Made by a program: the position numbers and the translations under genes
Notes under the pieces: generated by a model
What the model was told of the DNA's origin: nothing
The model's input: the letters and a program-made list of their open reading frames with translations, nothing else
Databases searched by the model: none
Shown: positions 24,601 through 58,400 of the stretch, piece after piece
How positions within the stretch are numbered: position 1 is the first letter of the stretch
How the letters are laid out: each line of letters opens with the position of its first letter
Origin: Xestospongia muta
Lineage: Eukaryota > Porifera > Demospongiae > Haplosclerida > Petrosiidae
NCBI GenBank assembly: GCA_963693285.1
Contig: OY848931.1
Span: 1,121,001 to 1,185,000, forward strand
Length of the DNA stretch: 64,000 nt
Reading direction: 5' to 3'

Positions 24601-24917
24601 GTCTATACCTCTAATGAGAGAAGTATCCAACCACCTGACATAAAAGTTGTCATGATAGACATGTCTAATTTCATTACTGATGATAGATGATGGTAAAAGG
24701 AACATAGAACTAAGACTAACAGCCACTGCTATAGTACAGAGTACTGAACTGTGAAGGTATGGAATAATAAGCGAGCTTGATGCTTTAATATGACTTACGT
24801 TATTCTGTATACTGCAGCTTCTTCTTCATCTAGGAGAGAGGGAGAGGGAGAGGGAGAGAGGGAGAGGGAGAGAGAGAGAGAGGGAGAGGGAGAGGGAGAG
24901 GGAGAGGGAGAGGGAGA

Positions 24918-24965
<48 letters not shown>

Positions 24966-35489: not shown

Positions 35490-36900
35490 GTAAAATTGTG
35501 ATCTTGAAACAACAATTCAAGAAGATTAATTTGAGAATTGTCATTACAGAAACTTTAATTTAAGTTCAATGGGTTTATTATTATGAGGCTGATCACCTAA
35601 TATCCTATTATATTGCTCAAATAAGAACGACCAGAAATTGGAGATGTAGGTTCATAGTCTACAATATAACTCTTCAAATAGTGAAGATGCATGTTGTGTG
35701 TTACAGATACTGGACCATATAAAAATACTACATGTACTATGGTCACTGATATTTATCTTTATAGGATTAATGTATGGAAGTCACAGTAATTTAGAGTATT
35801 AATTGGCAGTCAAGTTCTCTTTCCTTGCTGTCTAAAGTCATCTTTGATTTATGCTGTTTTAAGAGCTTTATTATCAGATCTATGCTTTGTATTATGACTT
35901 GGACTCCAAGATTCATTACTGAAATTGGAGTAGTTATTTTTCTCAATTACATTAAACAAATAAAGAATAAAATGTAATAGACGCTAATCCGTTAGTTTTT
36001 AACCCTTCTTTTTGACTTTGTATTACAAAATAATTCATGCATAATTAGGGTATATCTGGTTCTTCTGGGAGTTTGTGTCATGGCTGAGTCTGGTCCAGGT
36101 TCTAAAGAAGATAAGGCAAGTTAACCACTAATGGAATACTATATCCAGCTGTATTAGAAAACTTAGTTTTAGGATTTACAGATTCAAAGTTTGGCGTATA
36201 GATAGATATGATTTAATAATCTCTCAAATTCAATAAAAGTTACCTTTTCCGCCTATTGCGAAGAATATATCATAATTTTGACACTATTCATACTAAATAA
36301 TTAGACACAGAGGCCAAATTTATTAACCCAAAGAAGCCTTATCAAGCATGAAACATGAGGTTACAGTATATATATATATGTTTATAAATTTCATATATGT
36401 CATAAAACATTTCCAATAGTAAGTTAATGAATCACTATACTATCAGTATGTCTAGTCACAAGACAGTTAAAATATTGCGTGAGCAAGTGATAGATGTGAT
36501 AAGCTCATTTGCTTCCCAAGTGGATTACCATATTGTAGGCACTTACCTATTACAGATTCTCATAAGTCACAAAACAATTAGAGCAGACCAGCTTAGATTA
36601 TACATGACCACAATACTGCCATTTGATCTTGACTGATCAAAATTGTTTCTATATCGATTAGAAAACCTCTCAGAACCTCTGAATTAAATTTTATTAATTT
36701 GTCAAATAAAATCTTTTTCATACCATATATCAAATTAGTGTTTCAGTACACAGATAATATCATGGTTTTAAAACAATTTAAGCAAACAAACAAATAAAAA
36801 TATTTTCTAAAAAAATAAAGTAGGGAGGCTATTATTAGTCCAATACAAAGAATGGAAACAAGATAGTAGGGATGACAATTATACATCCTTACATAATAAC
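35490..36900 (+). repeat. Segmental duplication, left copy (upstream region and exon 1 of ZU5 gene 1)
   Basis: Sequence from about 35490 matches 50930 onward with small indels (for example GAGAATTGTCATTACAGAAA and the GGATTAATATATGGAAGTCA-type segment), through exon 1 (36080-36115) and several hundred bases beyond. It marks a tandem duplication of the whole ZU5 gene 5' end; the offset between first exons is 15.7 kb. Confidence 0.85.
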
Positions 36901-39900
36901 AAAGGTGACACAAACAATTAACGATATACACCAACAGTATCAGTGATAATATTGTTGCATTCTATGCCTGTGCTATTATGTGGGGATGATGCATTTGCCA
37001 ACCCTACTACCTTGTTTGCATTTTTTTTCTATTGGACTAATAGTGGTCTCTACATTTACTTTATTTTTTAGAAAATGTTTTTATTTACTTGTTGTATATA
37101 TAGCTAGTAAGATCTAGTATTATGCTCACTACTTTTATTACTTGACTTTCCCTTTTTATATATCTCTCTTCATCTTACCTATATTATACTTTTATAGGAA
37201 GTAAGTGTCATCAAATATAGTAATGCATTCATTATTTTGATAATACAACTTATTTTTTTTATATAACTTTGTTCCTGTTATTATAATAAAATCTATGCCT
37301 ATATTGTACTTGTATAGTGGGTAAGTGTCATTCAAAATCCAGTATTACATATTAACTACTTTATTATTTGGGTTTCTCCTTTTTTGTATGTCTGTTATGA
37401 TCTCTTTTAATAATGTGATGATACTCTATGCATATATTGTACTTGTATAGCATGTAAGTGTCATCAAATCTAGTATTACATTCACTACATTTATTACTTG
37501 ACTTTTTCCTTTTTCATATGTCGCTTTTCATCTCTGTTCCTAATGTAATGATAATCTATACCTATATTGTACCTGTATAGCAAGTAAGTGTCATCAAATC
37601 TAGTATTACATTTACTACTTTTATTACTCAACTTTTTTTCTTTTTGTGTGTCTCTCTTCATGTCTGTTCCTAATGTGATGATAATCTATGCCTATGTTGT
37701 ACTTGTATAGGAGGTAAGTGTATTTAATTCTAGTATTAGATTCACTACTTTTATTACTCAACTTTCTCTTTTTTATGTCTCTCTTTATCTTTATTCCTAA
37801 TGTGATGATAATCTCTACCTATATTGTACTTGTATAGGAAGTAAGTGTCATCAAATCCAGTATTACATTGCCTACTTTTATTATTTGGGTTTTTCCCTTT
37901 TTGTATATCTGTTGTGATCTCTTTTGATGATGTGATGATAATCTATGCATACATTGTGCTTGTAGCATGTAAGTGTCATCAAATATAGTGTACATTCACT
38001 ACTTTTATAATTTAACTTTTTCCTTTATGTGTCTCTCTCTTCGTGCCTGTACCTAATGTGATGATAATCTATACCTATATTGTACTTTTATAGGGAGTAA
38101 GTATCATCAAATATAGTATTACATTCACCACTTAATAATATAACTTATGTTTTTTATATGGCTCTGTTTATCTCTTTTCCTGTTGTTATAATAAAATTTA
38201 TACCTATGTTGTACTTGTATAGTTGGTAAGTATCATCAAATATAGTATTACATTCACTACTTTATAATACGACTTATCTTTTTATATATGGCTCTATTTA
38301 TCTATGCCTATGTTGTACTTGTATAGTCGGTAAGTGAATTTAATTCTAGTATTAGATTCATTACTTTTATTACTCAACTTTTTTATATGACTCTGTTCTT
38401 GTTGTTATAATAAAATCTATGCCTATATTGTACTTGTATAGTGGGTAAGTGTCATTCAAAATCCACTATTACATTAACTACATTATTATTTGGCTTTCTC
38501 CTTTTTTGTATGTCTGTTATGATCTCTTTTGATAATGTGATGATAATCTATGCATATATTGTACTTATATAGACTGTAAGTGTCATCAAATCTAGTATTA
38601 CGATCACTACTTTTATTACTTGACTTTTTCCTTTTTCATATGTCTCTTTTCATCTCTTTTCCTAATGTGATGATAATCTATATCTATATTGTACCTGATG
38701 TATAGTTTGTAAGTGTCATCAAAATTTAGTATTACATTTACTACTTTTATTATTTGACATTTTTTTCCTTTTTCATATGTCTCTCTCCATTTCTATTCTT
38801 AATGTGATGATAATCTATGCCTATATTGTACTCGTATAGTCGGTAAGTGAATTTAATTGTAGTATTAGATTCAGTACTTTTATTACTCAACTTCCTCTTT
38901 TTTATGTCTCTATCTTTATTCCTAATGTGATGATGATCTATATATTGTACTTGTATAGTCGGTAAGTGTCATCAAATCAAGTATTACATTGCTTACTTTT
39001 ATTATTTGGGTTTTTCCCTTTTTGTATGTCTGTTGTGATCTCTTTTGATGATGTGATGATAATCAATGCATATATTGTACTTGTAGCAAGTAAGTGTCAT
39101 CAAATATAGTATACATTCACTACTTTTATAATTTAACTTTTTCTTTTTTGTGTGTCTCCATGTCTGTTTTTAATGTGATGATAATCTATACCTATATTGT
39201 ACTTTTATAGGGAGTAAGTATCATCAAATATAGTATTACATTCACTACTTTATAATACAACTTTTTTTATATATGGCTCTGTTTATCTATACCTATGTTG
39301 TACTTGTATAGTCGGTAAGTGAATTTAATTCTAGTATTAGATTCACTACTTTTATTACTCAACTTTCTCTTTTTTATGTTTATCTATATTTACTCTATAT
39401 AGGAGGTAAGTGTCATCAAATCTAGTATTACAATCACTACTTTTGTTACTTGACTTTTTCCTTTTTCATATGTCTCTCTTCACTCCTGTTCCTAATGTGA
39501 TGATAATCTATACTTATTGTACTTGTATAGAGGGTAAGTGTCATCAAATCTAGTATTACATTCACTACTTTTGTTTATTGACTTTTCTCTTATTTATGTT
39601 TCTCTTCATCTTACCTATATTATATATTTTAGGGAGTAAGTGTCATCAAATCTAATATTACATTCACTATTTTTATAATTCAACTTTTATTTTTAAATGG
39701 TTCCTTCATCTCTGTTCATAATGTGATGACAATATATACCCATAATGTACTTGTATAAGAAGTAAATGTCATATATTCTAGTCTGACATTTCTTCCTTTT
39801 ATTATATAACTTGGACCTTTTTTGTTTTGCCCTATTCATCTCTTTTTATAACATGTCTATAATGTATGCATATATTGTACTTGTATAAGTTCCATCAAAT

Positions 39901-42900
39901 CTATTATTACGTTCACTAATTTTATTACTCGACTTTGTTTTCATATGTCTCTCTTAATCTTTATTCCTATTGTGATGGTATTCTATATCTATATTGTACT
40001 TGTATAGGTGGTAAGTGTATTTAATTTTAGTATTAGATTCACTACTTTTATTACTCAACTTTTCCTTTTTTATGTCTCTCTTTATCTTTATTCATAATAT
40101 GATGATAATCTCTACCTATATTGTACTTGTATAGCCGGTAAGTGTCATCAACTCTAGTAGCACATTGACTACTTCTATTATTTGACATTTTCCTTTTTTT
40201 CTGTTCTCTTTATGTCCCTTCCTAATGTGATTATAATGTATACCTATATTACATTTATATAGTTGGTAAGGGATAACAAATTTATTATTACATTCACTAA
40301 TTTTGTTATTCAACTCTTCATATTTGTATGTCTCTTTTCATCTCTTCTTAATGTGATGATGATCATCTATGCCTATATTGTACTGGTATAGGATGTAAGT
40401 ATCATCAAATCCAGTAATACAATCATTAATTTTATTACTTGACTTTCTCTTTTTCATGTCTCTCTTTATCTTATCATGTGATGATAATCTATGCATATAT
40501 ATGTACTTGTAGCATGTAAGTGTCATCAAATATAGTATACATTCACCACTTTATAATACAACTTATGTTTTTTATATGGCTCTGTTTATCTCTTTTCCTG
40601 TTGTTATAATAAAATTTATACCTATGTTGTACTTGTATAGTTCGTAAGTGCCATCAAATATAGTATTACATTCACTACTTTATAATACGACTTATCTTTT
40701 TATATGGCTCTATGCCTATGTTATACTTGTATAGTCGGTAAAGTGAATTTAATTCTAGTATTAGATTTAGATTCACTACTTTTATTACTCAACTTTCTCT
40801 TTTTTATGTTTCTCTTTATCTCTGTTCTTAATGTGATGATAATCTATACCTATATTGTTCTTGTATAGTCGGTAAGTGTCATCAAATATAGTATTACAAT
40901 AACTACTTTTATTATTCAACTTTTTCCTTTTACATATGTCTCTCTTCATTTCTGTTCCTAATGTGATGATAATCTATACCTATATTGTACTTGTATAGTC
41001 GGTAAGTGTCATCAAATCTAGTATTACAATCACTACTTTTATAATTCAACTTTTTCCTTTTACAAATGTCTCTCTTCACCCCTGTTCCTAATGTGATGAT
41101 AATCTCTGCCTATGTTGTACTTATATAGATTGTAAGTGTCATCAAATCTAGTATTACATTCACTACTTTTATAATTGAACTTTTTCCTTTTACATATGTC
41201 TCTCTTCATTTCTGTTCCTAATGTGATGATAATCTATACCTATATTGTACTTGTATAGTCGGTAAGTATCATCAAATCTAGTATTACAATCACTACTTTT
41301 ATAATTCAACTTTTTCCTTTTACAAATGTCTCTCTTCACCCCTGTTCCTAATGTGATGATAATCTCTGCCTATGTTGTACTTATATAGATTGTAAGTGTC
41401 ATCAAATGTAGTATTACGATTACTACTTTTATTATTCAACTTTTTCCTTTTACATATGTCTCTCTTCATTTCTGTTCCTAATGTGATGATAATCTATACC
41501 TATATTGTTCTTGTATAGCCGGTAAGTGTCATCAAATATAGTATTACAATCACTACTTTTATTATTCAACTTTTTCCTTTTACATATGTCTCTCTTCATT
41601 TCTGTTCCTAATGTGATGATAATATATACCTATATTGTACTTGTATAGCATGTAAGTGTCATAAAATTTAGCAATAAAATCACCACTTTCATTACTCAAC
41701 TTTTTCCTTTTTTATATGTCTCTCTTCATTTCTGTTCCTAATGTGATGATAATCTATACCTATATTGTACTTGTATAGTCGGTAAGTGTCATCAAATCTA
41801 GTATTACATTCACTATTTTTATAATTGAACTTTTTCCTTTTACATATATCTCTCTTCATTTCTGTTCCTAATGTGATGATAATCTATGCCTATATTGTAC
41901 TTGTATAGTCGGTAAGTGTCATCAAATCTAGTATTACAATCACTACTTTTATAATTCAACTTTTTCCTTTTACAAATGTCTCTCTTCACCCCTGTTCCTA
42001 ATGTGATGATAATCTCTGCCTATGTTGTACTTATATAGATTGTAAGTGTCATCAAATGTAGTATTACAGTTACTACTTTTATTATTCAACTTTTTCCTTT
42101 TACATATGTCTCTCTTCATTTCTGTTCCTAATGTGATGATAATCTATGCCTATATTGTACTTGTATAGTCGGTAAGTGTCATCAAATCTAGTATTACAAT
42201 CACTACTTTTATAATTCAACTTTTTCCTTTTACAAATGTCTCTCTTCACCCCTGTTCCTAATGTGATGATAATCTCTGCCTATGTTGTACTTATATAGAT
42301 TGTAAGTGTCATCAAATGTAGTATTACAGTTACTACTTTTATTATTCAACTTTTTCCTTTTACATATGTCTCTCTTCATTTCTGTTCCTAATGTGATGAT
42401 AATCTATACCTATATTGTACTTGTATAGTATGTAAGTGTCATAAAATTTAGCAATAAAATCACCACTTTCATTACTCAACTTTTTCCTTTTTTATATGTC
42501 TCTCTTCATTTCTGTTCCTAATGTGATGATAATCTATACCTATATTGTACTTGTATAGTCGGTAAGTGTCATCAAATCTAGTATTACATTCACTACTTTT
42601 ATAATTGAACTTTTTCCTTTTACATATGTCTCTCTTCATTTCTGTTCCTAATGTGATGATAATCTATACCTATATTGTACTTGTGTAGTTGGTAAGTGTC
42701 ATCAAATCTAGTATTACATTCACTACTTTTATAATTGAACTTTTTCCTTTTACATATGTCTCTCTTCATTTCTGTTCCTAATGTGATGATAATGTATATC
42801 TATACTGTACTTGTATAGCCGGTAAGTGTCATCAAATCTAGTATTACATTCACTACTTTAGTACTTGACTTTTTCCTTATTTATGTCCATCTTCATCTTA

Positions 42901-45900
42901 CCTATATTAATCATTTTAGGGAGTAAATGTCATCAAATCTAGTGTAACATTCACTATTTTTATTACTTATGCCTGTGCTATATTGTAGGGATGATGCAAT
43001 TGCCAACCCTACTATCTTGTTTGCATTTTTTCTATTGGACTAATAGTGGTCTCTACATTTACTTTATTTTTTAGAAAATGTTTTTATTTACTTGTTGTAT
43101 GTATAGCTAGTAAGATCTAGTATTATGCTCACTACTTTTATTACTTGACTTTCCCTTTTTATATATCTCTCTTCATCTTACCTATATTATACTTTTATAG
43201 GAAGTAAGTGTCATCAAATATAGTATTACATTCATTATTTTGATAATACAACTTATTTTTTTTATATAACTTTGTTCCTGTTATTATAATAAAATCTATG
43301 CCTATATTGTACTTGTATAGTGGGTAAGTGTCATTCAAAATCCAGTATTACATATTAACTACTTTATTATTTGGGTTTCTCCTTTTTTGTATGTCTGTTA
43401 TGATCTCTTTTAATAATGTGATGATACTCTATGCATATATTGTACTTGTATAGCATGTAAGTGTCATCAAATCTAGTATTACATTCACTACATTTATTAC
43501 TTGACTTTTTCCTTTTTCATATGTCACTTTTCATCTCTGTTCCTAATATGATGACAATCTATACCTATATTATACTTATATAGCCAGTAAGTGTCATCAA
43601 ATCTAGTATTACATTCACTACATTTATTACTTCACTTTTTCCTTTTTCATATGTCTCTTTTCATCTCTTTTCCTAATGTGATGATAATCTATACCTATAT
43701 TGTACCTGTATAGCAAGTAAGTGCCATTAAATGTAGTGTTACATTAACTACTTCTTATTCAACACTTTTATCTTTTTTGTATATTTCTCTTCATGTCTGT
43801 TTCTAATGTGATGATAATCTATGCCTATGTTGTACTTGTGTAGTCAGTAAGTGAATTTAATTCTAGTATTAGATTCACTACTTTTATTACTCAACTTTCT
43901 CTTTTTTATGTCTCTCTTTATATTTATTCCTAATGTGATGATAATCTATACTTATATTGTACTTGTATAGTCGGTAAGTGTCGTCAAATCCAGTATTACA
44001 TTGCCTACTTTTATTATTTCGGTTTTTCCCTTTTTATATGTCTGTTGTGATCTCTTTTGATGATGTGATGATAATCTATGCATACATTGTGCTTGTAGCA
44101 TGTAAGTGTCATCAAATATAGTATACATTCACTACTTTTATAATTTAACTTTTTCTTTTTTGTGTGTCTCTCTTCGTGCCTGTTCCTAATGTGATGATAA
44201 TCTATACCTATATTGTACCTGTATAGTTTGTAAGTGTCATCAAATCCAATATTACATTTACTACTTTTATTATTTGACTTTTTCTTTTTTGTGTATCTCT
44301 CTTTGTGTCTGTTCCTAATGTGATGATAATCTATGCCTATGTTGTACTTGTATAGACAGTAAGTGTATTTAATTCTAGTATTAGATTCACTATTTTTATT
44401 ACTTAACTTTCTCTTTTTTATGTCTCTCTTTATCTTTATTTCTAATATGATGATAATCTATACTTATATTGTACTTGTAGCATGTAAGTGTCATCAAATC
44501 TAGTATTACATTGACTACTTTTATTATTTGGGTTTTTCCTTTTTTATATATCTGTCGTGATCTCTTTTCATAATGTGATGATAATCTATTCATATATTGT
44601 ACTTGTAGCATGTAAGTGTCATCAAATCTAGTATTACATTCACTACTTTTATTACTTGACTTTTTTCTTTTGTGCGTGTCTCTCTTCATGTCTGTTCTTA
44701 ATGTGATGATAATCTATACCTATATTGTACTTGTATAGTCGGTAAGTGTCATCAAATCAAGTATTACATTGATTACTTTTATTATTCAACATTTTTATGT
44801 TTTCTTGTCTTTCTCTTCGGGTTTGTTCCTAATGTGATAATAATCTATACCTATATTATACTTTTATAGGGAGTAAGTATCATCAAATATAGTATTAAAT
44901 TCACCATTTTGATAATACAACTAATAAGTCAATAAATTAATATTATTACTTTTCCCTTTTTTATGTTTCTCTTTATCTTTATTCCTATTGTGATGAAAAT
45001 CTATACCTATATTGTACTTGTATAGGTGGTAAGTGTACTTAATTTTAGTATTAGAATCACTACTTTAATTTTATTATTTAACATTTTTTTCTTTTTTGTA
45101 TGGCTGTTGTCATCTTTGTTCCTAATATGATGTGTTACTATATCTATATTGTACTTGTATAGCCAGTAAGTGTCATTAAATCTAGTATCACAATCACTTT
45201 TTTTTATAATTTAACATTTTTTTCTTTTTTGTATGTCTCTCCTTATCTCTGTTCTAAATGTAATGATAATCTATATCTATATTGTACTTGTATAGCCAGT
45301 AAGTGTCATTAAATCTAGTATTACAATCACTACTTTTATTATTTAACATTTTTTCCTTTTTTGTGTGGCTCTCATCATCTTTGTTCCTAATATGATGTGT
45401 AACTATATTTATTTTGTACTTGTATAGCCAGTAAGTGTCATTAAATCTAGTATTGCAATCACTACTTTATTATTTAACGTTTTTTTGTATATCTCTCCTC
45501 ATCTCTGTTCTAACTATGATGATAATCTATACCTATATTATACTTATATAGCCGGTAAGTGTCATTAAATTTAGTATTACAATCACTACTTTTATTATTT
45601 AATGTTTTTTGTATATCTCTCCTCATCTCTGTTCTAACTATGATGATAATCTATACCTATATTATACTTATATAGCCGGTAAGTGTTATTAAATTTAGTA
45701 TTACAATCACTACTTTTACTATTTAACGTTTTTTTGTATATCTCTCCTCATCTCTGTTCTAACTATGATGATAATCTATGCCTATATTTTACTTTTATAG
45801 AGGGTAAGTGTCATCAAATCTTGTATTACTTTTCACTACTTTTATTATTCAACATTTTTTATATGACTCTTTTCATCTCTGTTCTTAATGTGATGATAAT

Positions 45901-48900
45901 CTATGCCTATGTTGTACTTATATAGAGGGTAAGTGTATTTAATTCTAGTATTACATTCAATACTTTTATTACATGGCTTTTTAAATTTTTTGTATGTTTC
46001 TCTTCATCTCTGTCATAATGTGATGATAATCTATATCTATATTGTACTTGTATAGAGGGTAAGTGTCATCTAATTTGTATTCCATTTGCTACTTTTATTA
46101 TTCGACTTTTTCTTATGTGACTCTTTTCATCTCTGTTCTTAATGTGATGATAATCTATACCTATATTGTACTTGTATAGAGGGTAAGTCATCAAATCCAG
46201 TATACATTCACTACTTTTATTATTTGACTTTTTCCTTTTTTGAATGTCACTTATCATCTCTGTTTTTAATCTAATGATAATCTATACCTATATTCTACTT
46301 ATATAGAGGGTAAGTGTCATCAAATCTAGTATTACATTCACTACTTTTATTATTTGACTTTTTTCTTTTTTGAATGTCACTCATCATCTCTGTTCTTAAT
46401 ATGATGATAATATATACCTATATTGTACTTGTATAGAGGGTAAGTGTCATCAAATCTAGTATTACAATCACTACTTTTATTATTTAACTTTTCTTTTTTT
46501 GTATGTCTCTTTTTATCTCTGTTTTTAATCTAACAATAATCTATACCTATATTGTACTTGTATAGAGGGTAAGTGTCATCTAATTTGTATTCTATTTACT
46601 ACTTTTATTATTCTACTTTTTTCTTTTTTTTATATGACTCACTTCATCTTATCTTCTTAATGTGATGATAATCTATACCTATATTGTGCTTGTATAGAAG
46701 GTAAGTGTCATCAAATCTAGTATTACATTCACTACTTTTATAATTTGACTTTCCTTTTTGTATGACTCTCTTCATCTCTGTTCCTAATGTGATGATAATC
46801 TGCAACTATACTGTACTTGTATAGAAGGCAAGTATCATCAAAATGTAGTATTACATTGATAATATAATTGTAGGACTGTCTGGCATGTTAAACAGCCTAT
46901 CCATATTTGTATAATTTAGTATAATCATGTGTAATGTATTTTTACTGTATTGTAAAACAGCATTTAGTTTGTTAGTTGTTTGGTGAAAGAAATGTATTTT
47001 TAAGCTGATGTTTTTAGTTTTTGAAATTTCTTTATTTTAGTTTAGTTTTACGTAGTTAACTGTAAGTACTAATCATTTTTGTTAAATACAATTATTTGGT
47101 TATAATTAGTTATGGAAATACTGTGAAACATTTAGTTTAGTTAAGCTAGTTATTGGTATTTATGTTTATTTAACTAAAAGTGAAAACAACTTAGTTTTAG
47201 TTATAAAACAATACCTGACTAATATATGTTTGTTTCATAGTTGAATGTTGAAGGCAACAAATATAATTTAGCCATCTGCAATGACTATAGGACACATAGT
47301 GAGCAACAAATTTCAATTAGTTTTATTATATGCAACTCAAACTAGATGTAACTAATTGAATGATTATGTAATAATCAATTTGTATTGTTAATGTTTTGAC
47401 TTCTTCATTTCTTTTTTGTGTGTCATTCATACTGGGTTAATAATTATCCTGTATTTGTCTGTCTATAAGTGTCGACTATTGTTGCCATTGTTGATGTAAT
47501 TGCTCTATCTCGTTGATGTGCCACTGATTTATGTTACAAGTACTCCTCAAATTAGAACTGTATTATTGATAACAATTTTCCTTTCTATTTCACATCCTAT
47601 GATATACATTTCTTTTGAATAGAGTGGAAAACTTTTTCCTCAAGACAAAACTGCTCAACTCAGTGATGCCAGTACTCAATATGATATCAATAAACAAGAT
47701 GCAATGATACAGTTTAATTATCTTGTTCCTTCAACTGGTATATATATATATAATAATAGTTGATGTATATTTACTTCTTTGCTTTTAGATCATCTATATG
47801 GTGTTCATATAGCAGAGAAAAATCTCTTCTACATTCAAGGCAATGAAGCTCAGTCATTTTATTGGGAAGAATATGGTCTGAGACTTCATTCACCTCAAAA
47901 CACTATTTCTTTATCTGATACATGTGAAGTTGCTATAACTATACTTGTTGGAGGTCATTTTAAGTTTCCTAAAGGAACAATGTTAGCAAGTGCAGTATAC
48001 ACCATTTCTGTCGCCAAACCACTCCTCAAACCTCTAACATTAGAGATTCAACATTGTGTTAACATACAGACACAGGCTCAGACTAACTGTCTCTACTTTG
48101 TTAGAGCTTCCCTCACTCCTTCAACATTACCTTACGAGTTCACATTACTTGATGGAGGACAATTTCATGTGGGAAATCGATATGGTTCTATCACACGTGA
48201 TCACTTTTGTGCTATTGGTATTGTGGCAGAACAGGACCAGCAACCGCATGGAGAATCAGATGATGAGGGGAGCAGTGACAGCGAGGCATCTGAAAGCACC
48301 AAAAATGAGGAGAATAACAGTACAACTGATGAGGAGAAAGATAAACCTCAGAATAAATGTGAAGAAGATAATCTCCGCAGTGACGAAGTAATGTTAACTG
48401 TTGCTACTACTACATCAGGTAACACTAAATAATTTATAACATATTGTTATTATGTTATTTTTTGTATAGAGAGTGATGTGAATACAGATTTAGTTAGTAA
48501 ACCACAATCTGCCTCTGGTTCCAGTACTAACATGTTAGAATCACCTCCTACATTATCAACTCTCTCTGACACTGATGGTCTTGACTTACAGCCAGAAAAG
48601 AAAGGTATTAGAAGAGTACTTGACTGTAATTATAAATAGTTTTACCATAAGGAGCAACTCCCCCTTTGTCATTCATGTACACTGGATTGACTTATTATGA
48701 GGAAAAAGATGGAGATTGGATAGTGAGGTTTTATGTTGTGAAAGATCTTGATGCTCTTTTAAAGGTAATTTTCAAAATTCTCCTTTTATGATATTTGTAT
48801 ACTATAATATTATAGTATTTAAAAGAAGAATATCCACATGCAGATAAAAATGATCCAATCTATTTCAATTTTGTTGATGAAATTGGATCTGTTAAACTCA

Positions 48901-50055
48901 TTTTACAAAAGAAACCACCTCAAGGATGGACTATCACACCTTTTTCTGAGTGCACGGTATGACTAATTATATTTACATTAACAATAACTATTAATTTTCC
49001 CTATTTTAGCTTTGGCAGTCTGTCATTGATAAATTTGGGTCATTACAGCATTCTATACCTCCATCATGTCAGTTGTTAGTTTATGTTGATGATGATGAAC
49101 CTAGTACTGTTAAACGTCTGGTCTATCCTATCAAATTAAAAGGTATAAAACCTCCAAATGAAATATTGATTTATCGAAAACTAATAAAGAAATCTCCAGT
49201 ACCAGGTATGAACATATTAACAGAATAGACATTATTTTGTTACTTTAGGTGCTACTTCATTGTCTCAAGAGATTATGTCCAAAGACCAGTCCTCTCCTGA
49301 ACCAACAATTTCTGGTAAATATGTATCTGTAAATTATGTATGTTGTGTTATATAATGATTGGAGAGGGATTAGAAATGAATCATGCCTATAATAGTATGG
49401 CAGACTTCTGTTATGTACACACTGATCTGTGTTTTGCTTGTGTTTTGCACTTCTCACTATGTCAACAAAGTAATGCAAAGATTTCTCTATAGCTGGTATC
49501 CCTGATATATGCTTGCTAAATTTGGTATACAAAACACTAGCTGGCATTGTCATTGATAAGAACTAATTATTTGACTTTTAATTTATACATGTAAATAACA
49601 TAGATGATATATTGGTAAAGTTCAATTTTAATCCCTCTCCTCTCTTAATTATGGCTTTATTTACTGTAATATTATATGATCATTTGTACTTCATAGACAT
49701 TGACATCAGCAAAATGAAGAAACTAATGAAGAAAGTTCTCACAAAAAATCATGCTGCTTTAACTGACTTGCCAAAAACTTCATTAGCAAAGCTAGCTGAA
49801 GAAATGTTTTCTGCTGGTCTTATTAATAGAGAAGTACAAAGAGCACCTACCCTTGATGACATTATTGGTGAATTCGAGGCAGGAATGAGTTTCATAACAG
49901 CTCACACTGAATTGCAAGAATATGTTGTGAAGTTCCTAGAGATTTTGAATAATATGGGTGGTAGTTTTGCTCGTGCTGCTAATGTCCTTCGAAGTGAATG
50001 GACTGAAATCATTAACAAAGAACTAAAAGTGGAAATAAACTTTACTATAGACTGA
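36080..50055 (+). CDS. ZU5-domain protein with a long array of single-codon microexons, copy 1
   Basis: Exon 1 (36080-36115) encodes MAESGPGSKEDK and ends with a GC donor (AAG/GCAAGT) in phase 0. The alternative GT donor 4 bases on would shift the frame to an early stop. The next long exon, 47623-47737, starts in phase 0 (SGKLFPQDKTAQLSD). Exon 47789-48418 holds the ZU5-like domain (EYGLRLHSPQNTISLSD, GGHFKFPKGTMLASAVY) and an acidic tail. Exons from 48470, about 48653, 48817, 49011 and 49249 follow, and the last, 49697-50055, is a helical domain (LPKTSLAKLAEEMFSAGL), perhaps a death-fold relative. Between exons 1 and 2 lie 76 units of AG-NNN-GTAAGT, each a possible 3-nt exon that keeps phase 0. 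ZU5 domains occur in ankyrin, UNC5 and PIDD scaffolds; the function here is unknown, and an intracellular signalling adaptor is the likeliest guess. Confidence 0.75.
36955..37500 (+). repeat. Internal duplication in array 1, left copy (right copy 42965-43512)
   Basis: The non-repeat lead-in (GATGATGCATTTGCCAACCC, then TTGGACTAATAGTGGTCTCT) and the first four units with CTA, GAA, TGG, CAT recur at 42965-43512 with few changes. Array 1 therefore contains two blocks of about 6 kb that began alike and then diverged in unit order. Confidence 0.9.
37104..46827 (+). repeat. Microexon array 1: tandem ~130-bp units, each intron plus a 3-nt exon
   Basis: Each unit has a T/C-rich tract, CTAAT and GATAAT branch-point-like motifs, TATAG, three bases, then GTAAGTGTCATCAAATC. 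First base and trinucleotide: 37104 CTA, 37198 GAA, 37318 TGG, 37451 CAT, 37581 CAA, 37711 GAG, 37838 GAA, 37966 CAT, 38094 GGA, 38223 TTG, 38327 TCG, 38442 TGG, 38573 ACT, 38706 TTT, 38840 TCG, 38959 TCG, 39087 CAA, 39211 GGA, 39312 TCG, 39403 GAG, 39531 AGG, 39633 GGA, 40008 GTG, 40135 CCG, 40263 TTG, 40392 GAT, 40513 CAT, 40641 TTC, 40735 TCG, 40869 TCG, 40999 TCG, 41129 ATT, 41259 TCG, 41389 ATT, 41519 CCG, 41649 CAT, 41779 TCG, 41909 TCG, 42039 ATT, 42169 TCG, 42299 ATT, 42429 TAT, 42559 TCG, 42689 TTG, 42819 CCG, 42920 GGA, 43107 CTA, 43201 GAA, 43321 TGG, 43454 CAT, 43584 CCA, 43714 CAA, 43844 TCA, 43971 TCG, 44099 CAT, 44227 TTT, 44356 ACA, 44481 CAT, 44609 CAT, 44739 TCG, 44870 GGA, 45026 GTG, 45163 CCA, 45296 CCA, 45428 CCA, 45552 CCG, 45676 CCG, 45801 AGG, 45926 AGG, 46056 AGG, 46190 AGG, 46307 AGG, 46437 AGG, 46566 AGG, 46698 AAG, 46825 AAG. 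Units near 39760 and 39890 are broken. 40869-42819 is homogenised at exactly 130 bp. Confidence 0.9.
46830..47622 (+). other. Intron sequence between array 1 and exon 2 of ZU5 gene 1
   Basis: AT-rich sequence with TTAGTTTAGTT-type runs and no AG-NNN-GTAAG pair. It ends in the acceptor TTTTGAATAG at 47613-47622. A related TTAGTT-rich patch interrupts array 2 at about 62860-63060. Nothing else is seen. Confidence 0.6.
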
Positions 50056-50929: not shown

Positions 50930-52440
50930 TTGTGATCTTGAGACAACAATTCAAGACAATTAATGTGAGAATTGTCATTACAGAAACATTAATTAATTAA
51001 GTTCAATGGGTTTATTGTGATTACCTAATATCCCATTATATCACTCAAATATTATGAAAACCGAGATAGGTCCATAGTCTTCAATATAACTCCTCAAATA
51101 ACAGTGAAAATTGTGAAATTATCAATAATGATGTATCAAAATAAGTTACTGTGAAAGTATAATTTTTTATTCATAATTGAAACTAATGCTTTGTAGCTAT
51201 AGATCTAATAAGTAAATTGTGCATGTAGTCACTGATATTTATCTTTATAGGATTAATATATGGAAGTCACAATAATTCAGAGTATTGACACCGAACTTCT
51301 CTTTCCTTGCTGTCTAAAGCTGTACTTGATTTATACAGTTTTTCAGAGCATCATTATCTGCTCTATGTTTTGTATTATACCTTAGACTTCAAGATTAACG
51401 ACTGAAATTGGAGTAGTTATTTTCTCAATTACATTAAACAATTAAACAATAAAATGTAATAGACGATAGCTGTTCATTTTAACCCTTCTTTTTGACCTTG
51501 AATTGCAAGACTTGATAATTATTCATTATTATCGTAGTCTCGTATAGATTAAATTACAAAAAATACGAAGTGTCTACAGGTCCGGTAAAAAAAGCCATAC
51601 TTTAATGTGAAATTAATACATTTAGGGTCTAGTGTGTAGGGTCCAGGGTATAGTATTAATTTCACATTAAAGTATGGCTTTTTTTTACCGGACCTGTAGA
51701 CACTGCCTACAAAATAATGATTCACGTATAATTAGGGTATATCTGGTTCTTCTGGGAGTTTCTGTCATGGCTGAGTCTGGTTCAGGCTCTAAAGAAGATA
51801 AGGCAAGTTAACCACTAATGGAATACTATATCCAGCTGTATTAGAAAACTTAGTTTTAGGATTACAAGTTCAAGGTTTGATGTAGAGGTAGATATAATTT
51901 AGTTAAACATCTCTCCAGTCAGTGGAAACGCCCCTCTAATTACCTTTTCCAACTATTGAGAAATATCTATCATAATTTTGATACTATTCACACTACATAA
52001 TTAGACACTATGGCCAAATTTATTAACTCAAGGAAGCCTTATCATTCAGCATTATCAGCAGTAAGTGAATGATATCACTATGCTATCAACATGTGTGATC
52101 ACAAGGTTGTTAATATTACATGAGCAAATGACAGAGGTGATAAGTTCATTTGTTCTAAGTGGATTATCATATTATAGGCAACTGGCTAATGTAGATTCTC
52201 ATAAGGTACCAAGATCATTATAGCAGACCATTTTACATTAAACATGACCACAATACTACTTGACTGATCAAATGGTTGTTTCTAAATTAGAAAAATTCAA
52301 TTAAATTAGGAAACCTCTCAAAACCTCTAAATTAGCTTTTATTAATTTTTCAAAATATCTTTTAACATATCATACATCAACTTAAAGTGTTTGATTACAC
52401 AAATAATATTACAGTCACTGTTTTTACAGTTTATGATTCT
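50930..52440 (+). repeat. Segmental duplication, right copy (upstream region and exon 1 of ZU5 gene 2)
   Basis: Counterpart of 35490-36900. Identity runs through upstream sequence, exon 1 and the first part of the intron (for example CTAATGGAATACTATATCCA in both). The right copy carries an extra foldback element at 51569-51704. Confidence 0.85.
51569..51704. mobile_element. Foldback/MITE-like element with ~51-bp inverted repeats
   Basis: The left arm (51569-51619) starting AGTGTCTACAGGTCCGG is the reverse complement of the right arm (51653-51704), apart from one extra T in the T run. The loop of about 33 bases contains TAGGGTCTAGTG and TAGGGTCCAGGG. The element is absent from the left duplicate at about 36040, so it inserted after the gene duplication or was lost there. 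No clear target-site duplication and no transposase are seen. Confidence 0.75.
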
Positions 52441-55400
52441 TTGTTTTCATCTTTTTATCTGGCTTTCTTTATCTCTGTTCCTAATGTGATAATAATCTGT
52501 AACTATATTGTACTCGTATAGCCGGTAAGTGTCATCAAATCTAGTATTACAATTATGACTTTAATTACTCGACTTTTTCCTTTGTCTCTCTTCTTTTTTG
52601 TTCATAATACGATGATAATCTATAACTATATTGTACTCTATATAGAGCGTAAGTATCATAAAATCTATTATTACAATCACTACTTTTATTATTCAACTTT
52701 TTCCTTTTTTCCACATCTCTCTTACTTTCTGTTCATAATGTGATGATAATCTATACCTATATTGTACTCTATATAGCCGGTAAGTGTCATCAAATCTAGT
52801 ATTACAATCACTACTTTTATTACTCGACTATTTCTTTTTTTGTTTGTCTCTCTTCTTTTTTGTTCATAATGTGATGATAATCTATACCTATATTGTACTC
52901 TATATAGCCGGTAAGTATCATCAAATCTAGTATGACAATCAATACTTTTTTACTTGACTTTTTCCTTTTTCATATGTCTCTCTTCATCTCTGTTTGTAAT
53001 GTGATGATAATCTATACCTATATTGTACTTGTATAGGGGGTAAGTGTTATTGAATCTAATATTACAATTACAACTTTCATTACTCAACTTTTTCCTTTTT
53101 ATATATCTCTCTTCTTTTATGTTCCTAATTTGATAATAATCCATACCTATATTGTACTCTATATAGCCGGTAAGTGTCATCAAATCTAGTATTACATTCA
53201 CTACTTTTATTATTCAACATTTTTTTTTTTTTCGTATGACTCTTTTCATTTCTGTTTCTAATGTGATGATAATCTATACCTATATTGTACTTATATAGCA
53301 TGTAAGTGTCATCAAATTTAGTATTATAATCACTATTTTTATTATTCAACATTTTGTTCCTTTTTTATATGACTCTCTTCATTTCTGTTCCTAATGTGAT
53401 GATAATCTATACCTATATTGTACTTGTATAGTATGTAAGTGTCATCAAATCTAGTATTACAATCAATACTTTTATTATTTGACTTTTTTCTTTTTCCTTT
53501 TTTCCATATCTCTTTTTTATTTCTGTTCTTAATGAAATGATAATCTATATCTATATTGTACTTGTATAGCCGGTAAGTGTCATCATATTTAGTATCACAA
53601 TTATGACTTTAATTACTTGACTTTTTCCTTTTTCTTATATTTCTCTTCTATATTGTTCATAATACGATGATAATCTATAACTATATTGTACTGTATATAG
53701 ATGGTAAGTATCATAAAATCTATTATTACATTCACTACTTTTATTATTCAACATTTTGTTCCTTTTTCATATGACTCTCTTCATTTCTGTTCCCATTGTG
53801 ATGATAATCTATACCTATATTGTACTTGTATAGCATGTAAGTGTCATCAAATCTAGTATTACAATCACTACTTTTATTACTTGACTTTTTCCTTTTTCAT
53901 ATGTCTCTCTTCACCCCTGTTTCTAATGTGATGATAATCTATACCTATATTGTACTCTATATAGCCGGTAAGTGTCATCAAATCTAGTATTACAATCACT
54001 ACTTTTATTACTCGACTATTTCTTTTTTTGTTTGTCTCTCTTCTTTTTTGTTCATAATGTGATGATAATCTATACCTATATTGTACTCTATATAGCCGGT
54101 AAGTGTCATCAAATCTAGTATTATAATCACTATTTTTATTATTCAACATTTTTTCCTTTTTCATATGTCTCTATTCATTTCTGTTTCTAATGTGATGATA
54201 ATCTATACCTATATTGTACTTGTATAGAAGGTAAGTATCATAAAATCTATTATTACATTCACTACTTTTATTATTCAACATTTTGTTCCTTTTTCATATG
54301 TCTCTCTTCATCTCTGTTTGTAATGTGATGATAATCTATACCTATATTGTACTTGTATAGGGGGTAAGTGTTATTGAATCTAATATTACAATTACAACTT
54401 TCATTACTCAACTTTTTCCTTTTTATATATCTCTCTTCTTTTATGTTCCTAATTTGATAATAATCCATACCTATATTGTACTCTATATAGCCGGTAAGTG
54501 TCATCAAATCTAGTATTACATTCACTACTTTTATTATTCAACATTTTTTTCTTTTTTCGTATGACTCTTTTCATTTCTGTTTCTAATGTGATGATAATCT
54601 ATACCTATATTGTACTTGTATAGCATGTAAGTGTCATCAAATTTAGTATTATAATCACTATTTTTATTATTCAACATTTTGTTCCTTTTTCATATGACTC
54701 TCTTCATTTCTGTTCCCATTGTGATGATAATCTATACCTATATTGTACTTGTATAGATTGTAAGTGTCATCAAATCTAGTATTATAATCACTATTTTTAT
54801 TATTCAACATTTTTTCCTTTTTCATATGTCTCTATTCATTTCTGTTTCTAATGTGATGATAATCTATACCTATATTGTACTTGTATAGAAGGTAAGTATC
54901 ATAAAATCTATTATTACATTCACTATTTTTATTATTCAACATTTTTTCCTTTTTCATATGTCTCTATTCATTTCTGTTTCTAATGTGATGATAATCTATA
55001 CCTATATTGTATTTGTATAGATTGTAAGTGTCATCAAATCTAGTATTACAATCACTACTTTTATTCTTCGACTTTTTCCTTGTTCCTTTTTTCCATGTCT
55101 CTCTTCATTTGTGTGCCTAATGTGATGATAATCTATACCTATATTGTACTTGTATAGCATGTAAGTGTCATCAAATCTAGTATTATAATCACTATTTTTA
55201 TTATTCAACATTTTTTCCTTTTTCATATGTCTCTCTTCATTTCTGTTTCTAATGTGATAATAATCTATACCTATATTGTACTTGTATAGTCAGTAAGTGT
55301 CATCAAATCTAATAATACAATCACTACTTTTATTATTCGACTTTTTCCTTTTTCATATGGCTCTTTTCATTTCTGTTCCTAATGTGATGATAATCTATAC

Positions 55401-58400
55401 CTATATTGTACTTGTATAGCATGTAAGTGTCATCAAATTTAGTATTATAATCACTATTTTTATTATTCAACATTTTGTTCCTTTTTCATATGACTCTCTT
55501 CATTTCTGTTCCCATTGTGATGATAATCTATACCTATATTGTACTTGTATAGATTGTAAGTGTCATCAAATCTAGTATTATAATCACTATTTTTATTATT
55601 CAACATTTTTTCCTTTTTCATATGTCTCTATTCATTTCTGTTCCTAATGTGATGATAATCTATACCTATATTGTACTTGTATAGAAGGTAAGTATCATAA
55701 AATCTATTATTACATTCACTATTTTTATTATTCAGCATTTTTTCCTTTTTCATATGTCTCTATTCATTTCTGTTTCTAATGTGATGATAATCTATACCTA
55801 TATTGTATTTGTATAGATTGTAAGTGTCATCAAATCTAGTATTACAATCACTACTTTTATTCTTTGACTTTTTCCTTGTTCCTTTTTTCCATGTCTCTCT
55901 TCATTTGTGTGCCTAATGTGATGATAATCTATACCTATATTGTACTTGTATAGCATGTAAGTGTCATCAAATCTAGTATTATAATCACTATTTTTATTAT
56001 TCAACATTTTTTCCTTTTTCATATGTCTCTCTTCATTTCTGTTTCTAATGTGATAATAATCTATACCTATATTGTACTTGTATAGTCAGTAAGTGTCATC
56101 AAATCTAATAATACAATCACTACTTTTATTATTCGACTTTTTCCTTTTTCATATGGCTCTTTTCATTTCTGTTCCTAATGTGATGATAATCTATACCTAT
56201 ATTGTACTTGTATAGCCGGTAAGTGTCATCAAATCTAGTTTTGCAATCATGACCTCCATTACTCAAATTTTTCCTTTTTTCCATGTCTCTCTTCATATCT
56301 GTGCCTAATGTGATGATAATCTATACCTATATTATACTTGTATAGGAAGTTAGTGTCATCTGTTTTGTTTTCATTTACTACTTTTATTATTTGATTTTTT
56401 CCTTTTTTCCATGTCTCTCTTCATTTCTGTTTCTAATGTGATGATAATCTATACCTATATTGTACTTGTATAGTATGTAAGTGTCATCAAATCTAGTATT
56501 ATAATCCCTTTTTTTATTATTCAACATTTTTTTCTTTTTTCCATGTCTCTCTTCATTTCTGTTCCTAATGTGATGATAATCTATACCTATATTGTACTTG
56601 TATAGCATGTAAGTGTCATCAAATCTAGTATTATAATCACTATTTTTATTATTCAACATTTTTTCCTTTTTCATATGTCTCTCTTCATTTCTGTTTCTAA
56701 TGTGATAATAATCTATACCTATATTGTACTTGTATAGTCAGTAAGTGTCATCAAATCTAATAATACAATCACTACTTTTATTATTCAACTTTTTCCTTTT
56801 GCATATGTCTCTTTTCATTTCTGTTCCTAATTTGATGATAATCTATGCCTTTATTGTACTTGTATAGCTGGTAAGTGTTGTCAATTGTAGTATTTAATTC
56901 ATTACCTTTAATTTTTCAACTTTTTTGTATGGCTGTCTTCAACTCTGTTCCTATGATAATCTATACCTATATTGTACTTGTATAGTATGTAAGTGTCATC
57001 AAATCTAGTATTACAATCAATACTTTTATTATTTGACTTTTTTCTTTTTTGTTTATCTCTCTTCATTTCTGTTCCTAATGTGATGATAATCTATACCTAT
57101 ATTGTACTTGTATAGCCGGTAAGTGTCATCAAATCTAGTATTATAATCATAACCTTTGTTAGTCCTTATTTGTTTGTTTTTTATCTGGCATGCAATTGGA
57201 CAATCCTAAGATTGTTTTTGACCGCATGTACATGTCAATATGTTTGTTTCATAGCTCTATTGTATTGTTCTATATAATATTTTAAGGCTACAAATAAAAT
57301 TTATCCATGTGCAATGACTGCAACACCATAACAAGAAATAGTTCTTATTGTGTGTGCTTCTATCTGGCTGTGATTAATTGAAACAATATGTAATAATGAT
57401 TTTGGCAGTACTATAGCTACTTCTAACCCTTATGTTTCAGAGTCAAAGTAGTTTACTGCAACACCAGCAGTACCAAAACCATCTCAAGATGATTTTTACA
57501 ATTATAATCGTGCTATTTTTTGTGTGGCTCTTTGATCATCTTTGTTTCTAATACTCTATTCCTATATTGTACCTTTCTGTAGTTTGGTACTCTCTATTGT
57601 TATATTCACTTTTTCACTATTAATAATTTGATAATGTATTTTTGTTTGTGTTTATCAATTTATTATTGCTTCTAATCTTAAGATAATATAAACGTTTTGT
57701 ATTTGTTTAGGAAGTAAGTGTCACTATTTTAATTCTTAATTGGTCTACAATCTATCCTTCTATATCTCTATATTGATGACACTATGATTTTAGCCTGTAA
57801 GCATTATTGTTGTATTATCAATGATGTTATTGTTTTTTATGGTTTTGATCTAACTGTTTGACTGCAATATCTTGTTCAGCCTGTAAGTGTTAATCAAATA
57901 TTATTTTATTTGTGACTTTTTATTTTATTTATATGTTTCTCCTTCTATAACATTGACTGTGTGCTTCTACATGTTTAGCCTGTGAGTTCACTGTTTTAAT
58001 TATTCATTAATAATTGTCTATCTTTTATAACTATCTGATGCTAACAATATATTCTGTTTTCAATTGGTTCAGTATGTAAGTTCCCTCTTGCTAGTCTTGT
58101 CATATCTACAATAATTATAATTCTATTCTTTTTGTATGTCTCTTTCCTGACAATAATAATCTCTTATTTACATAGCGAGTAAGTTCAGTGAACAAATTGT
58201 TGTTATTATTTTTTTGATAAATTTGTGTCACTCTCATGCTGTGACAATAATTTTTCATATTCCTAATTGCTAACTATTAGAGATATTTTTATCTTTTTTA
58301 TGTGGCTCTCTTTTTTTCACATACTATAATAAGATTGTAAGTGTTAAACAATTATTTAATGCATTTTTATTGCTTTTTGTGATTTTTCTTAAATTTTTTA

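Follow-up and report, generated by a model that had tools for sequence, protein, structure and literature searches.

The closest described counterparts of the locus reported here belong to a class of schistosome and tapeworm genes, the micro-exon genes (MEGs). These contain small exons in runs, most of them with a length that is a multiple of three, and exon skipping in them is said to permit proteins differing by a single amino acid (PMC7653826, PMC10526429). In the accounts given there, the MEGs of Schistosoma mansoni have 10–20 short exons of 6–81 bp, mostly 15 bp, introns of up to about 5 kb and secreted products, the minimum exon being given as 6 bp in the results text and as 3 in the abstract (PMC7653826, PMC10526429). 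An operational definition asks for 7 or more exons, of which half or more must be micro-exons (<70 nt, length a multiple of three) and at least four of these must follow one another (PMC7653826). Isolated microexons are described as well: micro-Ex8 of Drosophila homothorax is a 3-nt exon that is spliced and alternative (PMC7392893), and isolated tiny microexons are spliced in the plant genes APC11 and VPS55, the latter having a 1-nt exon with a conserved GTRAGT donor (PMC8831610). Here we analyzed a window of 64,000 nt from the sponge Xestospongia muta (contig OY848931.1, positions 1,121,001 to 1,185,000; C15:1,121,001–1,185,000 below), in which the intron ahead of a predicted ZU5-fold domain is made of tandem units, each consisting of a short intron and a candidate exon of one codon. 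The genome searched comprises 158 Mb in 28 contigs, and the arrays examined are seven (A1, A2, D, A3, C2, C5a and C5b) in five paralogous ZU5 genes, plus a stretch from a cluster of ankyrin-repeat genes. With moderate confidence we read the arrays as genuine single-codon exons, which would be spliced stepwise into a hypervariable peptide segment, most likely with differing codon subsets in different transcripts.

With 76 candidate 3-nt exons and 9 others in our model, gene 1 of the window would fit the operational MEG definition if the candidate exons are spliced, and in both systems small exons, or candidates for them, stand in runs with lengths in multiples of three. The arrays here differ, however, in that nearly all their candidate exons are of one codon, in their tandem homologous introns of 105–135 nt, and in their 21–148 strict units and hypervariable codons. 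They depart from the exon size and number of the schistosome type (among the 399 units defined by their flanks, 381 have 3 nt and 5 have 6 nt; 21–148 strict units per array). Isolated 3-nt and 1-nt microexons show that such short exons can be spliced, and the VPS55 exon likewise has a GTRAGT donor, but they are single conserved exons and not arrays, and the parts of those sources that deal with them report no codon diversification. Dscam1-type arrays consist of tandem duplicated exons that give an isoform repertoire, the exons being much larger and mutually exclusive; the tandem duplication is shared, whereas here the exons are of one codon and any number of them keeps the frame. In PRDM9-type zinc-finger minisatellites a conserved repeat carries a few hypervariable codons per unit, and the whole is exonic and fully translated. 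The likeness lies in a conserved scaffold with diversifying codons and the difference in the scaffold, which here is an intron with one translatable codon per unit. If the units are spliced, a tandem intron scaffold with a hypervariable one-codon payload would be a new kind of arrangement; if all runs of symmetric microexons are counted as one kind, these arrays would be an extreme variant of it. Compared with the initial annotation of the window, the scale, the second gene family and the codon diversification are new.

Array A1 in gene 1

The initial annotation had described about 76 units, each with the acceptor TATAG, exactly three bases and a near-perfect GTAAGT donor, between two exons in phase 0. 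The features concerned are the following (window positions).

36080–36115, plus strand: gene 1 exon 1, MAESGPGSKEDK, ending in phase 0 and followed by the GC donor GCAAGT; gene 2 and the C2 gene have a matching exon, likewise with a GC donor
37104–46827, plus strand: array A1, with 76 candidate single-codon exons spaced by a median of 130 bp; 22 different codons are used, none of them a stop
47623–47737, plus strand: first post-array exon, SGKLFPQDKTAQLSDASTQYDINKQ (SGKLFPQ...), starting in phase 0
47789–48418, plus strand: predicted ZU5-fold exon, HLYGVHIAEKNLFYIQG, assigned from Pfam ZU5 matches in the family and predicted structure; under constraint by dN/dS (ratio of nonsynonymous to synonymous substitution rates)

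Exon 1 and the ZU5 exons are separated by 76 sites of the pattern AG-NNN-G[TC]AA[GA], with codons from 37,104 to 46,827. In 200 dinucleotide shuffles we obtained a mean of 0.7 and a maximum of 4 such sites, so that the proposed number of units stands; the stricter pattern YAG-NNN-GTRAG gives 73 units, which encode 16 different residues. The three-base spacing was likewise borne out, as on the plus strand of the A1 stretch no length between 0 and 30 except 3 occurred more than once, and on the minus strand the highest count for any length was 5, at length 0. A chance repeat is ruled out by these shuffles and length counts. The splice sites are somewhat less uniform than had been claimed: some units have TTGTAG, TTTTAG or GTGTAG in place of TATAG, and in two degenerate units near 39,757 and 39,887 TATAAG replaces it. 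The donor is GTAAGT in 70 of the 76 units (compared to 0 of the 7 ordinary introns in the gene 1 model), but the last unit has a GC donor (46,825). The GC donor GCAAGT after exon 1 is present in three paralogues, at window positions 36116 and 51803 and in the C2 gene. Both flanks were correctly placed in phase 0, at the end of exon 1 and at 47,623.

The start of A1 (37060–37960) recurs 6,003 bp downstream (43063–43963) with 83% ungapped identity, and this copy includes part of the pre-array intron (94%). Directly ahead of the first A1 unit lies an imperfect inverted repeat (72%; 36785–37093), possibly resembling a miniature inverted-repeat transposable element.

Evidence for genuine exons

We analyzed 495 three-base exons, selected through their splice sites, and found no stop codon among them, whereas about 26 would be expected from the positional base frequencies (21.4 + 4.9). 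A further 18 units on C1 and C10 have no stop either. When the codons are concatenated and read in the other two phases, stops appear in 7 of 8 arrays (26 for C5a and 24 for C5b in phase 2). We also located units by flank models, built from strict units with the splice sites and the exon excluded and with D and C1 left out. Among the 399 units recovered with both flanks, 381 have a 3-nt exon and 5 a 6-nt exon (all in C2), and no exon bears a stop; the remainder includes 1 misread 3-nt exon, 1 of zero length and 11 without a recognizable AG...GT, some of them truncated matches. Another 42 matches without a downstream partner were set aside. In each array region read, an exon length of 3 predominates. 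The five 6-nt exons (GTTGAA, GCTAAA, GACGAA, GATGAA and GATGAT) are again multiples of three without stops, and were located by the flank models as follows.

About 17,738, 19,424, 19,534, 21,453 and 21,850 of the reverse complement of C2:2,590,001–2,630,000: C2 units with 6-nt exons

Structured non-coding RNA was considered as an alternative identity of the units and is ruled out by the Rfam search, which gave no match in window positions 36000–64000, together with ordinary fold scores of four intron consensus sequences (z of 0.70, 0.40, 0.11 and −0.56).

Codon hypervariability

Next, we investigated the variability of the codons relative to the introns that carry them. Codon positions 1 and 2 are the most variable of 43 profiled positions in 6 of 7 arrays, all except D, with 1.67 to 1.97 bits; position 3 varies less (0.43 bits in C2). 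For pairs of units with 5–10% intron divergence the codon-site difference was 0.60 in A1, 0.69 in A2, 0.72 in A3, 0.48 in C5a and 0.63 in C5b, while C2 offers a single such pair, with equal codons.

We then counted changes along minimum-spanning trees, one for each array except D, keeping the 317 edges with a divergence of up to 0.10 and dropping 95. Codon sites changed in 311 of 951 cases (0.327) and intron sites in 1,140 of 31,576 (0.036). Of the 156 codon changes 154 are nonsynonymous, 2 synonymous and none nonsense, the last being expected by construction since no array codon is a stop. A separate test of the C1 ankyrin stretch, in which 52 edges passed a cut-off of 0.15 and 2 did not, gave 0.526 for codons compared to 0.070 for introns, and all 39 changes are nonsynonymous. 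Between close units the codons thus change 7–9 times more per site than the introns, and 193 of 195 inferred codon changes alter the amino acid. If single bases of the observed codons were changed at random, 22% of the changes would be synonymous and 5% would create stops; the fair comparison for the synonymous rate is with the 55 single-base changes (44 + 11), for which about 12 synonymous ones are expected and at most 2 were seen. The codon alphabets, of 9–22 codons per array, contain 18 synonymous pairs compared to 30.3 in random draws (P 0.002), although array by array only A1 and C1 fall below 0.05.

Codon composition shows some further peculiarities. G at the third base is found in 0 of 298 codons of C5 and C1, in 31 of 34 of C2 and in 37 of 73 of A1, and other C1-type arrays contain one CAG and one ATG as exceptions to its absence. 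No alanine codon occurs among the 495. A test for target-site duplication by identical neighboring codons gave mixed results: such neighbors are in excess in A1, D and C5b but not in A2, A3 or C2, and the values for C5a and C1 are borderline.

Arrays in other ZU5-family genes

The array in gene 1 ends before the exon that closes at 47,737, the extent originally given, but a second gene, beginning at 51,767, has the same architecture, which extends past the window end. Its features are listed below.

51767–51802, plus strand: gene 2 exon 1, MAESGSGSKEDK, phase 0, GC donor; counterpart of gene 1 exon 1
52522–57118, plus strand: gene 2 array A2, 35 strict candidate single-codon exons, no stop
57711–60420, plus strand: gene 2 diverged array D, 21 candidate single-codon exons, introns of 76–448 nt with similarity mostly lost
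61453–64000, plus strand: gene 2 array A3, 34 strict units in all, passing the window end into the adjoining stretch L025
About 3307–5507 of L025: gene 2 ZU5 exons, downstream of A3 and similar to those of gene 1

The introns of array D have diverged to a mean pairwise value of 0.69, with similarity mainly near the splice sites, and YAG-NNN still precedes 21 of the 22 plus-strand GTRAG motifs (mean 0.056, maximum 1 in 500 shuffles). The region upstream of gene 1 (35501–36115) is mostly duplicated ahead of gene 2 (about 50935–51802), and therefore the copied segment includes upstream sequence.

Outside this locus, the C2 gene (34 units) and two C5 genes (94 and 148 units) have the same order of short exon 1, array and ZU5-fold exons, so that the strict units per array range from 21 to 148. 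All five genes have an exon 1 that ends in phase 0; it was located by similarity in three of them and read by eye in the two on C5. The entry after the array is in phase 0 in genes 1 and 2, and in C5a and C5b it is read as phase 0 through a conserved 49-nt exon inferred by eye. An array is present in 5 of the 8 ZU5 copies with 68% identity or more (gene 1 included). ZU5-like exons as such match at least 150 places in the genome (150 of 401 candidates scored, some of which contain stops). Exact C15-type units gave 83 matches in only two clusters, both of which directly precede ZU5 exons of paralogous genes, and a dispersed satellite is ruled out by this distribution. Among the matches listed, further candidate units of the C5 type lie at C5:2.055–2.064 Mb.

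The C15/C2 and C5 units appear homologous when aligned (z 4.0–6.2, 200 shuffles per pair), and array D matches the unit models of both. As this apparent homology persists although the ZU5 exons are 75–76% identical, the array is probably old and has been kept, and the single-codon-exon arrangement probably predates the split of these paralogues.

Ankyrin-type arrays and genome-wide searches

A pattern search for three consecutive units gave 901 matches genome-wide compared to 15 in the reversed control. All triple-unit matches listed lie within C1:7.15–7.26 Mb and have a unit of about 135 bp. In the C1 stretches that we read, array units are flanked on both sides by ankyrin-repeat exons, in phase 0 by reading, and two of these exons match Pfam Ank with 4.8e-16. 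One C10 array has an ankyrin exon downstream, its entry being read as phase 0, and no ankyrin exon was found in the 6 kb beside a C7 match. BLAST with the C1-type consensus intron returned 709 matches, those listed lying on C1, C7 and C10. A search with shorter gaps gave 149 matches compared to 38 in the control and a search with TTAG acceptors 145 compared to 0; for CAG acceptors with gaps of 80–110 we observed no arrays beyond chance (1 match, 5 in the control), and the pattern search therefore does not yield arrays everywhere. A common origin of C1-type and ZU5-type units is unsupported (z 0.2 to 2.6). A short repeat of about 45 bp at C2:5,605,374–5,605,609 also matches CTTAC-NNN-CT.

Protein context

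The domain downstream of array A1 had been named ZU5. By itself the window copy falls below the Pfam cut-off (E 0.048 for the domain alone) and the full model protein has no match, but Pfam ZU5 is matched with E values of 1 or lower by 6 of the 8 members of the family, the best value being 5e-5, the homologue P0003 passes the cut-off, and the predicted fold agrees. For the AlphaFold model of 47791–48328 the best mean pLDDT (predicted local distance difference test) is 79.5, three of the five models being below 50. Foldseek with the ZU5-exon model gave 13 matches with E of 6.6e-6 to 9e-4, mostly to ankyrin ZU5 domains, besides UNC5b and NLRP1, with two GAIN domains ranking top. A profile search of PDB sequences returned no ZU5. 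Family profiles and predicted structure together point to a ZU5 fold for the domain that follows the arrays. In four paralogue pairs the ZU5 exon has a dN/dS of 0.25–0.48, and the genes are therefore under constraint.

Homologues with a named organism come from Amphimedon queenslandica (48–54% identity); its UniRef protein P0001 reaches 53% at most among the 57 matches listed when compared to the genome. As judged by eye, exon 1 has no hydrophobic leader (MAESGPGSKEDK, MSSRSTKDQ, MGTCFAKRR), such as the signal peptide of schistosome-type MEGs would provide. The remaining exons of the gene 1 model are these.

48470–48604, plus strand: linker exon, conceptual splice
48652–48764, plus strand: exon, GATPPLSFMYTGLTYY, acceptor inferred; the start was set here because 48640 gave a stop
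48816–48956, plus strand: exon of the gene model
49010–49205, plus strand: exon of the gene model
49249–49314, plus strand: exon of the gene model
49697–50055, plus strand: last exon of the gene model, carrying the stop

No Pfam domain was found in the last exon, and two relatives are named 'Death domain-containing' in UniRef. From these protein families we infer an immune-type role.

Proposed mechanism

In the mechanism that we propose, a unit would consist of a short intron (about 105–135 nt) and one codon, repeated in tandem inside a phase-0 intron. Since a 3-nt exon has no room for U1 at the donor and U2AF/U2 at the acceptor together, neighboring introns are probably removed successively, and near-perfect GTAAGT donors would help the successive removal of short introns. 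Each splicing step would add one residue or skip some, and each join would recreate a donor beside the added codon, as in recursive splicing, where a donor is recreated at the join. The first of these steps may be less efficient because exon 1 is followed by the conserved GC donor. The product would be a hypervariable segment of up to about 75 residues for A1 or about 150 for C5b, placed between a short N-terminus and the ZU5-fold domain or between two ankyrin repeats. The sequence itself shows the architecture, the phase in most copies, the lack of stops, the constant exon length, the retained splice sites, the excess of codon divergence and the recurrence; splicing, its stepwise order, translation, variable inclusion and the immune-type role we infer.

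A more far-reaching version can be put forward tentatively. The arrays might act as a codon-by-codon diversity generator, in which each transcript or cell uses its own subset of exons and a vast set of peptides is displayed beside a ZU5 signaling domain or inside an ankyrin stack, with selection keeping the codon libraries diverse; this would be an anticipatory recognition repertoire produced by splicing, not by DNA rearrangement, in an early-branching animal.

Alternative explanations

That the array units are real single-codon exons, as initially proposed, is strongly supported by the lack of stops, the exon length, the splice sites, the hypervariable codons and the recurrence in other genes. 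Several observations nevertheless weigh against our interpretation. The 495 codons are not independent, as units are related by duplication, and in the A1–C5b comparison at least 1 of 200 shuffles outscored the real alignment. Three of the 8 closest ZU5 copies (C15:1,982,038, C5:375,435 and C1:2,512,799) have no array in the 7.5–7.6 kb upstream. The phase-0 entry of C5a and C5b needs the by-eye 49-nt exon with its unusual acceptor, and downstream of the C2 array there is just a weak phase-0 acceptor. The codon excess in C2 is small (a ratio of 1.4 on 3 edges; about 3 at 10–20% intron divergence), and no codon difference separates the closest duplicates, 13 pairs in A2 and 18 in A3, which we take as probable recent block duplication. 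Just 44 of the 156 codon changes in the six arrays and 11 of the 39 in C1 involve a single base; the other 140 involve two or three, and therefore codon exchange between units by recombination probably contributes. Runs of 3-nt exons would also present a steric problem, and searches of the open-access literature, judged mostly from listings, gave no precedent for single-codon-exon arrays, subscription papers and preprints being outside their scope.

The evidence for real exons applies equally if nearly all microexons are always included in genomic order and each gene has one long fixed linker, diversity then lying between genes or individuals and not between transcripts. Such constitutive inclusion would fit the sequence nearly as well as variable subsets, and the uniform near-consensus donors would favor efficient splicing at each step. 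We regard it as rather unlikely, however, because broken units are tolerated and a different residue at each place of a fixed linker of 75–150 residues would need strong selection per residue. Inclusion of variable subsets, the combinatorial diversity generator suggested in the initial annotation, is the reading that we prefer and consider likely; it would fit the anatomy in its phase 0, its interchangeable splice sites and its tolerance of broken units. The units could also be spliceable and rarely included, acting as decoys or noise, so that the array slows, times or buffers the excision of the long intron that holds it, or disappears in steps with zero product. Competition among strong sites, in an intron of this length and with exon 1 followed by a GC donor, could have such an effect, but decoys have no need for 495 codons without a stop, for lengths of 3 or 6 bases, or for amino-acid diversification with almost no synonymous change, which makes this explanation very improbable.

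We assign the lowest probability, and only a slight one, to a neutral satellite or introner-like element that spread by unequal crossing-over or mobility, AG-NNN-GT being merely its repeat consensus. The units are tandem, homogenized and in places block-duplicated, and the C1-type unit is present at many places. Against this, array D retains the splice pattern after its introns have diverged, variability peaks at codon positions 1 and 2 in all arrays of the seven but D, and exact C15-type units lie just ahead of paralogous ZU5 exons in both their clusters. No relationship could be measured between the C1-type unit and the others, and one shared repeat therefore does not explain the pattern. 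In such an element all positions would evolve alike and no coding constraint would act, whereas here codon sites are several-fold more divergent and stops are absent; plain concerted evolution would homogenize the codon as it does the intron.

If genuine, the arrays would mark an extreme of exon-size reduction, with single-codon exons in tens to over a hundred, in which the intron is the conserved scaffold and the codon the variable payload. They would make it possible to test how the spliceosome handles a hundred or more consecutive 3-nt exons, whether an immune-like repertoire can arise by splicing alone, and in what way single codons within tandem DNA respond to selection. Very small exons are described as difficult for gene finders and read mappers (PMC8831610), which suggests that such programs may miss genes of the single-codon-exon type.

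Other repeats in the window

The left half of the window contains a 76-bp tandem repeat in 2 copies (23958–24107) and a GA-rich minisatellite (24834–24964).

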